DNA of 64,000 nt from Candidatus Gastranaerophilales bacterium (GTDB lineage Bacteria > Cyanobacteriota > Vampirovibrionia > Gastranaerophilales > Gastranaerophilaceae). This document shows, in pieces, positions 3,685 through 5,430 of the stretch. Made by a program: the position numbers and the translations under genes. Below the pieces are notes generated by a model that worked only from the letters and a program-made list of their open reading frames with translations, ran no database searches and was not told where the DNA came from. The stretch lies in assembly GCA_944324285.1 (NCBI GenBank), contig CALUVR010000001.1:62001-126000 (forward strand). The letters run 5' to 3'. Each line of letters starts with the position of its first letter. Position 1 is the first letter of the stretch.

Positions 3685-3741
3685 AAATTTAGCGGTTCAA
3701 TGTTAATATTTTGTAATATAATAAAAAGCAAAAGAATATTA

Positions 3742-3770
3742 TTGACATTAATCAATCTTTTAGCTATGAT
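3742..3770 (+). promoter_or_regulatory. Sigma70 promoter of the tRNA-Leu leader transcript
   Basis: TTGACA at 3742-3747, a 17-base spacer and TATGAT at 3765-3770: a near-consensus vegetative promoter. Transcription would begin near 3777 and read through three tandem structured repeats into tRNA-Leu, ending at the hairpin at 4201-4229. Confidence 0.85.
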
Positions 3771-3798
3771 AAAATAGCTTGAAAATTTAATAGGTTGT

Positions 3799-3902
3799 CC
3801 TGGTGGCAAGGACTCCGGTTTTGATTAAATATCAAAAATGGAGGGAGGTAGATATCATCTACCAGTTCACTAGGAAAACTTTGGAAATAGAATGTTTCCA
3901 GC
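3799..3902 (+). ncRNA. Tandem structured RNA repeat, copy 1 (tRNA-Leu leader)
   Basis: About 104 nt. The sequence predicts a three-way junction. P1 pairs 3799-3806 with 3867-3874. P2 is CTCC..TTTTGAT/ATCAAAA..GGAG. P3 is GGTAGAT-atc-ATCTACC (3847-3863). A linker hairpin GGAAA-N7-TTTCC follows. P1 keeps pairing despite base changes relative to copy 2. The family is not one I recognise. Confidence 0.7.
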
Positions 3903-4008
3903 CCTGGTGGCAAGGACTCCGGTTTTGATTAAGTAATCAAAAATGGAGGGTAGGTAGATATCATCTACCAGTTCGCCAGGAAAACTTAGGAAATAGAATG
4001 TTTCCAGC
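3903..4008 (+). ncRNA. Tandem structured RNA repeat, copy 2 (tRNA-Leu leader)
   Basis: About 106 nt and nearly identical to copy 1. P1 pairs 3903-3910 with 3973-3980 (8 bp including wobbles). P2 carries a one-base insertion that lengthens the stem to TTTTGATT/AATCAAAA. P3 is unchanged. The copy starts with GCCCTGGTGGC at 3901-3911, the same 11 bases as the 5' end of the tRNA downstream. Confidence 0.7.
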
Positions 4009-4109
4009 CCTGGTGGCAAGGACTCCGGTTTTGATTAAGTATCAAAAATGGAGGGAAGGTAGACGCCGTCTACCGGTCCGCCAGAAAATCGCTGAAAATT
4101 AATATGCCT
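4009..4109 (+). ncRNA. Tandem structured RNA repeat, copy 3 (tRNA-Leu leader)
   Basis: About 101 nt. P3 has become GGTAGAC-gcc-GTCTACC (4058-4074). Its seventh base pair has changed from T-A to C-G on both sides relative to copies 1 and 2, a true compensatory change. P1 pairs 4010-4016 with 4078-4084. The linker hairpin is degraded. The copy abuts the tRNA in register with the 103-106 nt repeat period. Confidence 0.7.
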
Positions 4110-4196
4110 GCCCTGGTGGCGGAATCGGTAGACGCGTTGGACTTAAAATCCAATTGGGTTAATCACTCAGTGCCAGTTCAAGTCTGGCCCAGGGCA
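4110..4196 (+). tRNA. tRNA-Leu (anticodon UAA)
   Basis: 87 nt class II tRNA. The acceptor stem GCCCTGG pairs with CCAGGGC and the discriminator is A. The anticodon stem TTGGA/TCCAA has loop CTTAAAA with anticodon TAA at 4144-4146. A long variable arm follows, and the T arm is GCCAG-TTCAAGT-CTGGC. CCA is not encoded. It is transcribed from the promoter at 3742 behind three structured repeats. Confidence 0.97.
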
Positions 4197-4200
4197 TTTT

Positions 4201-4229
4201 TAAAGGAGGTTTTTGTAACCTCCTTTTTT
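4201..4229 (+). terminator. Intrinsic terminator after tRNA-Leu
   Basis: AAAGGAGGTT, a short loop and AACCTCCTTTTTT form a strong hairpin with a T run directly after the tRNA. It also lies just beyond the stop of the convergent patatin gene. Confidence 0.9.
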
Positions 4230-4233
4230 AGTA

Positions 4234-5430
4234 TTATTCTTGAGCTAAAAATTCTTTATATTCAGCCACCTTATTATAAATTTTTATCAAAAGCTGTTCA
4301 AGTGTGCAAAAAATGAATTTTTCATTTTTTAGTTTTGCTTTACCAAATAAAGGCGGGTAAATAATACTTTCAAATAAAGCGTTTTTGAAGTCCCTGAGCA
4401 TAATGTAGTCATTTTGGTCAATAATTGATACGTAATCGCACAGGTATGTAAATAATTCAGCAAGAATACATTTAGCTTTATTAACATTGTCAGACTTAAG
4501 ATTTTTCTGAACCTTTTTTAGGTCGGTTTCTATCTGCTGATAAATGGAAAGAAATTTTTCTTTCTTTTTTGGTAAAACTTTTTTAAAGTAATCAATAGTC
4601 TGCTGGTAACCGGCTTTCATAAGTTTCTCTCTTTTTTCTGCAGCAAGATTAAAATCAACAATATTGATGTCGCCTGTATTTATAACAATGTAATCATATT
4701 TGTCTTTATCGTTATAAATATCCATTATGAATTCGGTTGCAATAATTGTGGCATAACTATAGAGTGAATTAATATATTCAATAGTATTTTTTTCGTTTCC
4801 TTCAAAGTCGCCTTCAAGTCGGAATTCAAGAATTCTAGAGTTTTGCGGCTGAAGATTTTTGGATAACTTCCACATAGGTGAGCTTTTTTGCAAATCGCCG
4901 TCAACCAGTACTCTATTATTATATTCGTAAGGCTTCATAAGCCCCGGCATGCCGCATGAAATTCTTATAGCGGTAGCAACTTCAAAATCAGGAGTTTCGG
5001 ATTTAGAAAATTCCTTACATTCAAAGCTTGATAAATCTGTTGTAATAATTACGAGGTTTTTGTCTAAATCATTGAAGGTTACAGCTTTATGGGAGCCTTT
5101 TTTATAGCTTTCTCCATAGAATTTTTGCTCAATTAAATCTCTAATCCAGTCGAGAAATACTTCTCCTTTGCTAAGTGCAAACTGTGGACCTATAGCGAAT
5201 TGTAAATCTCTGAATAGTTCAAAATTAACCTGAAGAAATATGTCTTTTAATTCCGCAGCGTCATAACCTACAGCAACTAATCCGGCAAGTACCGAGCCTA
5301 CAGAGGAGCCGGCAACAATATTGGGATTAATTCCGAGTTCTTCCATGGCTTTAACTGTACCACAGTATGCTGCGCCCCTTATTGCGCCGCCGCCGAATAA
5401 ACATGCATAATCAAAAGATTTGTTTTTCAT
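4234..5430 (-). CDS. Patatin-like phospholipase
   Basis: 398 aa. The patatin domain occupies about the first 215 residues. The oxyanion motif GGGAIRG is at 13-19, the nucleophile elbow GSSVG has Ser43, and the catalytic aspartate lies in VLVDGDL near residue 175, so the Ser-Asp dyad is complete. Such enzymes hydrolyse acyl chains from phospholipids or other esters at the membrane. The remaining 180 residues are helical, Lys/Asp-rich and unassigned. It starts 10 bases after the GT-C-like membrane protein stop, so the two are probably cotranscribed. No signal peptide is visible. Confidence 0.85.
   Translation of the reverse strand: MKNKSFDYACLFGGGAIRGAAYCGTVKAMEELGINPNIVAGSSVGSVLAGLVAVGYDAAELKDIFLQVNFELFRDLQFAIGPQFALSKGEVFLDWIRDLIEQKFYGESYKKGSHKAVTFNDLDKNLVIITTDLSSFECKEFSKSETPDFEVATAIRISCGMPGLMKPYEYNNRVLVDGDLQKSSPMWKLSKNLQPQNSRILEFRLEGDFEGNEKNTIEYINSLYSYATIIATEFIMDIYNDKDKYDYIVINTGDINIVDFNLAAEKREKLMKAGYQQTIDYFKKVLPKKKEKFLSIYQQIETDLKKVQKNLKSDNVNKAKCILAELFTYLCDYVSIIDQNDYIMLRDFKNALFESIIYPPLFGKAKLKNEKFIFCTLEQLLIKIYNKVAEYKEFLAQE

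Follow-up and report, generated by a model that had tools for sequence, protein, structure and literature searches.

Three structured units of about 100 nt stand in tandem between a promoter and the gene for tRNA-Leu(UAA) in a 64,000-nt stretch of a Candidatus Gastranaerophilales genome (the stretch is referred to as the window, the genome as G000), and it may be asked whether they are domains of an RNA, products of local duplication or inserted elements. The locus runs from the promoter through a leader, the three units and a second copy of the leader to the tRNA and its terminator (Table 1). The CCTGGTGGC anchors of the units lie at 3799, 3903 and 4009 and that of the tRNA itself at 4112, giving spacings of 104, 106 and 103 nt, the last of which reaches the tRNA anchor; the order proposed in a previous, sequence-only reading (a TTGACA-N17-TATGAT promoter, three units, the tRNA and a terminator) was thus recovered in full. 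Positions 3780-3807, spanning leader and tRNA start, are duplicated at 4093-4120 (repeat D5), and the same kind of leader is found at the empty sites of congeners. The small hairpin that links the units takes the place of the leader copy that precedes the tRNA, so the array has probably grown from one variant unit.

Table 1. Features of the tRNA-Leu(UAA) locus, in window coordinates.
Feature	Position	Strand	Remark
Sigma-70-type promoter of the tRNA transcript, TTGACA-N17-TATGAT	3742..3770	+	11/12 matches; also at orthologues with and without units
Native leader, from about the transcription start onward, TGAAAATTTAATA motif	3777..3796	+	left-hand portion of the duplication
Unit 1, copy of tRNA nt 1-11, GTCCTGGTGGC	3797..3807	+	one change
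Unit 1, core, P2 hairpin AAGGACTCC...GGAGGG	3808..3845	+	
Unit 1, P3 hairpin (folded-back D-loop copy) and 3′ strand of P1 (inverted D arm, diverged)	3847..3874	+	
Small hairpin GGAAATAGAATGTTTCC, linker of units 1 and 2	3883..3899	+	fold
Unit 2, copy of tRNA nt 1-11, GCCCTGGTGGC	3901..3911	+	
Unit 2, core P2	3912..3950	+	fold
Unit 2, P3 and P1 3′ strand	3953..3980	+	fold
Small hairpin GGAAATAGAATGTTTCC, linker of units 2 and 3	3989..4005	+	fold
Unit 3, copy of tRNA nt 1-11, GCCCTGGTGGC	4007..4017	+	
Unit 3, core P2	4018..4055	+	fold
Unit 3, P3 GGTAGACGCCGTCTACC (direct D-loop copy GGTAGACGC and inverse) and P1 3′ strand GGTCCGCCAG	4058..4084	+	
Leader, second copy, abutting the tRNA	4093..4108	+	repeat D5
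tRNA-Leu(UAA), intact	about 4109..4197	+	
Intrinsic terminator	4202..4226	+	

From 5′ to 3′, a unit consists of a copy of tRNA nt 1-11, a core, and a direct copy of the D loop that runs on into the D arm in inverted form. The nt 1-11 copy breaks off exactly within the D stem, and it is at this point that the conserved hairpin core, AAGGACTCC-stem-TRAGT-stem-GGAGGG (class A), follows. In unit 3 the D-loop copy GGTAGACGC continues into the inverted D arm as GTCTACCGGTCCGCC, the exact inverse of the D arm being GTCTACCGATTCCGCC. The suggestion that the units derive from the tRNA was borne out; that the 5′ match ends inside the D stem, and that the core recurs at three further tRNAs of the genome, had been overlooked. 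The CCAGTTC motif that had been likened to the T arm is present in copies 1 and 2 only; an inverted D arm that has diverged is the better reading of it.

Each window unit folds as a three-way junction in which P1 closes the hairpins P2 and P3, with z-scores of -4.9, -4.1 and -2.2 for units 1, 2 and 3 relative to dinucleotide shuffles, as had been proposed. The compensatory change noted in P3 is also real: its seventh pair is changed from T-A to C-G in copy 3 (GGTAGAT/ATCTACC to GGTAGAC/GTCTACC). In an alignment of 36 cores, each from a different site, changes on both sides affect six of the eight pairs in the upper P2 stem, and one-sided changes affect none. The core search pattern fixes GGACTCC and ATTRAGTAT and leaves the stem between them free, and this covariation is therefore not circular. 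Conserved structure is thus present at homologous loci, with P2 covarying strongly, and the pattern of substitutions indicates that the structure of the unit is under selection.

The core also stands before tRNA-Leu(UAG), tRNA-Val(GAC) and tRNA-Pro(CGG) of G000, each time with the 5′ end of that tRNA. Its pattern was found in 21 of 146 genomes of relatives, with none in the other families of that sample, and within the family itself 104 of 383 genomes (25 of 41 genera) have it; the reversed-pattern control gave few matches, about zero. Hosts within the family carry the core upstream of tRNAs for Leu, Val, Pro, Thr, Lys and Met, nearly always with the tRNA's own 5′ end. Over 105 units, the 12-nt arm shares on average 11.1 of 12 positions with its own tRNA and 6.7 with other tRNAs in the same orientation, and the inverted D/T-arm copy scores 9.4 and 6.5, respectively. 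The true matches in named collections are Gastranaerophilales or gut and rumen assemblies; matches there in other taxa lack the full hairpin beside a tRNA. A pattern scan of viral contigs yielded only chance matches with short stems, and a viral origin was set aside. The units apparently form a large family, hitherto undescribed, of small structured DNA elements adjoining many tRNA genes of these gut bacteria; no description of such elements was found in literature searches that covered few subscription papers.

Other cores occupy the same layout. At a threshold of at least 11 of 12 matches, 9 of 39 tRNAs of G000 have a copy of their 5′ end and 6 of 36 a copy of their 3′ end, with no copy on the wrong side; the 5′ copies lie about 90-110 nt from the tRNA and the 3′ copies about 175-200 nt. 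Class A is the core of the window units, class B reads ACTCTGCC...GAGAGG and class C CAGTGGAGC..GCGAAACG.AGTT.ATAAT, and classes D and E are found on the 3′ side of tRNAs. At tRNA-Asp, three different cores occupy the identical split point in three genomes. Units of this kind are also carried by a genome from another family of the order (G093), and G140, a genome outside the order, has none at thirty tRNA loci. The class D core (GCGGATTTGC...GCAAATCCAAGACAA, about 110-130 nt) is larger and structured, without an Rfam match, and belongs to the 3′ units of four tRNAs in G000: tRNA-Asp (L249), Arg-TCT (L245), Glu-CTC (L261) and Gly-CCC (L252). A further core, F (CCTGACTC.T.AGGCTC...TCGCCTA.GATTCAGG), is common to two bacterial families of the order, at tRNA-Lys-CTT in G010 (L421) and in a 129-nt array at tRNA-Pro in G093 (L455).

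Of the units near a tRNA, 83 lie in the sense orientation, upstream of the tRNA, and 23 (about one-fifth) lie antisense behind the tRNA 3′ end, beyond the terminator. The arm of the antisense units copies the antisense of the tRNA 3′ end and is mostly split within the T stem. Upstream of these units, on their strand, there is no excess of promoters (best score 7.7, compared with 8.2 for shuffled sequence); antisense RNA from the 3′ units is accordingly unlikely, and a general role as leader RNA is disfavoured. Class A copies are also located in palindromes without a tRNA (L117, L054 and L129), nested in another unit type (L096 and L177) and in a short tandem (L071). In three class A cases at tRNA-Lys-TTT (L068, L074 and L108), the antisense tRNA copy passes the T arm, and its split is found at the anticodon arm instead. 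Younger copies often have about 25-65 nt duplicated; where this is clearest, the duplication starts near the 5′ end of the transcript (the TTGAAAATTTAATA leader) or just outside the terminator.

The orthologous tRNA-Leu(UAA) locus, next to a patatin-like gene, holds no unit in G003, G012, G006, G004 and G008, one in G011 and G009, and three in the window. As G003 and G012 have kept the promoter and leader directly upstream of the tRNA, units are gained or lost downstream of the promoter and ahead of the tRNA. Congeners have kept the promoter whether or not they carry units, and the window units should therefore be co-transcribed with the tRNA. The description of the units as the leader of a transcript agrees with this conserved promoter; the antisense copies without promoter excess and the copies in non-tRNA palindromes count against it as a general explanation. 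Within a genus, unit stems are more similar at the same tRNA (0.76) than at different tRNAs (0.63), although this similarity, being mostly composition after control, was rejected as a clean way to separate vertical inheritance from mobility. Stems at one tRNA are inherited within the genus, so movement is not frequent, and in some cases stems are common to different tRNAs of one genome.

The two duplicated parts have diverged unequally: in an ungapped comparison of units that had been chosen by arm match, the nt 1-11 copy mismatches its tRNA at 1-6% over most of nt 2-11, compared with 30-40% for the leader copy. This suggests selection on the tRNA-like arm beyond passive duplication of a target, and can reflect a need to sequester the inverted D arm for tRNA folding, or a recombination site that matches the tRNA.

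The explanation that best accommodates these observations, and is probably correct, is that the window holds, in three tandem copies, a non-autonomous insertion element that is based on a hairpin and directed to tRNA ends. It is favoured by the recurrence at four tRNAs of G000, with arms drawn from each tRNA, by the empty sites, by the antisense, non-tRNA and nested sites, by the P2 covariation and by the interchangeable cores at tRNA-Asp. Insertion would occur at the DNA level, in a single strand, at a hairpin-forming arm of the tRNA, and the flank would be duplicated as far as an AT-rich stretch close to the end of the transcript; a single-strand transposase or hairpin-primed template switching are possible routes, and recombination would then expand the tandem arrays. 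In the window, the units would precede the tRNA in the transcript and fold independently, and the retained nt 1-11 copy could pair with the inverted D arm, such that the tRNA would still fold and might be cut out by RNase P. The insertion of such an element is made less certain by the failure of the enzyme candidates, by the inheritance of stems within a genus and by the retention of the nt 1-11 copy while the leader copy decays, and a simple transposition model does not account for the inverted arm.

Two enzymes were considered as the engine. Reverse transcriptase (PF00078) was absent from all six unit-rich genomes tested and was ruled out on that ground. A Y1 transposase gene was present in 6/6 genomes with units and 1/6 without in the first 12 genomes; this perfect-looking link was lost when 80 more genomes were added (23/42 with units and 17/50 without), and the Y1 transposase, weakly associated as it is, was not retained. 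A Y1 (RAYT-type) gene with ordinary REPs (GTAGGTTGGGC..., GTAGGTTGGGCATACCTGCCCAAC) adjoins a class B unit on the 3′ side of tRNA-Leu(CAA) in G000 (L300, G000:C39:4103-6281), and another lies with ordinary REPs between class B remnants in G011 (L302, contig C8). An autonomous long version was also sought; the exact GCAAGGACTCC matches in G000 that lack the TRAGT hairpin are not at tRNA ends.

Several of the same observations could be accounted for by the main rival, in which the units would be functional RNA, i.e., co-transcribed leader domains that mimic the 5′ half of the tRNA and control its folding, processing or supply, or small RNAs that are released. The inverted D arm is able to pair with the unit or the tRNA, a promoter lies upstream here and at the orthologues, the folds are strong, the nt 1-11 copy is the conserved one, and comparable repeats in E. 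coli (rtT) are annotated as RNA. Wobble also favours the top strand, with 29 G.T in the 82-stem set and 3 A.C in a separate, shorter count; however, the covarying P2 pairs of the 36 aligned cores show no one-sided wobble changes. A deficit of G-U pairs was considered as proof of action at the DNA level, but the 3.8% found in the 82 stems is near that of terminators (5.6%) and of tRNA acceptor stems (5.0%) and is not decisive. The antisense cores behind terminators, the cores in non-tRNA palindromes and the patchy presence among congeners make an RNA function rather unlikely as the reason for the units.

Duplication driven by the host, without mobility, would require template switching by replication at tRNA hairpins, with gene conversion spreading cores between tRNA loci. 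A direct and an inverted copy of one arm are the signature of fold-back template switching, the arrays are tandem, the enzyme search came up empty, and units of the same genome are alike (0.66, compared with 0.51 after composition shuffling). However, 25 of 41 genera have the core, whose structure is conserved and covaries, and the L117 and L054 sites share no flanking homology, and this origin is considered improbable. Still harder to sustain is the idea that the units are decoy attachment sites, in which copies of tRNA ends draw the integrases of phages or islands away from the tRNA. Such a role would fit with copies of 5′ as well as 3′ ends, with the terminators on the 3′ side and with the strong identity to the tRNA, but integrases seldom use tRNA 5′ ends, the copies are interrupted by the core, and an integrated element was seen at no unit; the likelihood of this role is judged to be very small.

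The tandem repeats of E. coli tyrT have long been unexplained and have so far been treated as a one-off. Now that their layout has been found beside many tRNAs of a distant lineage, at either end and around unrelated cores, the repeats become part of a class instead of a curiosity, and whether that class originates from a mobile element, template switching or RNA function can be tested by comparative genomics and with simple bench experiments. A wider proposal, offered tentatively, is that single-strand hairpin mobile elements of a new class, with interchangeable cores, might reside preferentially at the tRNA genes of Gastranaerophilales; their putative enzyme would copy both the tRNA end and its inverse whenever an element inserts, and the rtT of E. 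coli tyrT would be an isolated survivor of this class. Contigs of G000 start (C21, C28 and C35) or end (C38, C39 and C41) within tRNA genes; unresolved unit arrays are probably the reason, and unit copy numbers at these contig-end tRNAs may be higher than seen.

Known systems resemble the units in part. REP and BIME sequences are short intergenic hairpins, tandem or paired and non-autonomous, that are thought to move as single-stranded hairpins. Unlike the REPs of REP/RAYT systems, the units contain no GTAG-type REP and have a tRNA-end copy instead: at the foot of the hairpin, before the core, GTAG is replaced by the tRNA copy, which mostly reads GGC or AGC there. Integrative elements and phages at tRNA attB sites likewise leave the tRNA intact and its end duplicated, whereas the units are about 100 nt rather than kilobases long, have no integrase gene, carry an inverted arm copy, and use both tRNA ends, in antisense at the 3′ ends.

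The closest likeness is to the rtT (RttR) repeats of the E. coli tyrT operon (RF00391, RtT), which are also tandem units beside a tRNA with a terminal tRNA copy. The E. coli unit combines 19 nt of the tRNA 3′ end with an inverted T arm (GGGGAAGGATGAGAAG) and a structured core between them, in the order inverted T arm, loop, 5′ half of the T arm, core and 19 nt of the tRNA 3′ end. In both, a piece of the tRNA terminus is present in direct orientation (nt 1-11 in the window; 11.1/12 family-wide), and an inverted tRNA arm closes a three-way junction through P1, as seen in the folds of the window units. The GGATGAGAA junction of rtT is shared with the 3′-type tRNA-Tyr unit of G000 (GGATGAGAACC), which has a tRNA-Tyr 3′ array apart from the window units; other 3′-type units have GATGAGAA or GGTGAGAACC at this position. 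The Rfam RtT model matched all four copies in E. coli tyrT, used as a control, at 133-138 bits, and gave no match in a cmscan of window positions 3700-4240 up to E=5 or at the Gastranaerophilales 3′-type loci tested. The two therefore share an architecture and not membership of RtT. At the gathering score, tRNAs alone were matched in the window, with no group I or II intron or other RNA family. The statement that no RNA family with such a layout is known has to be qualified, as rtT shows the layout in mirror image. Whereas rtT lies 3′ of tRNA-Tyr, the window units lie 5′ of tRNA-Leu(UAA), use the D arm and have an unrelated core; and, unlike the single tRNA locus inspected in E. coli, the units of Gastranaerophilales are family-wide, with several cores and at both ends of tRNAs.
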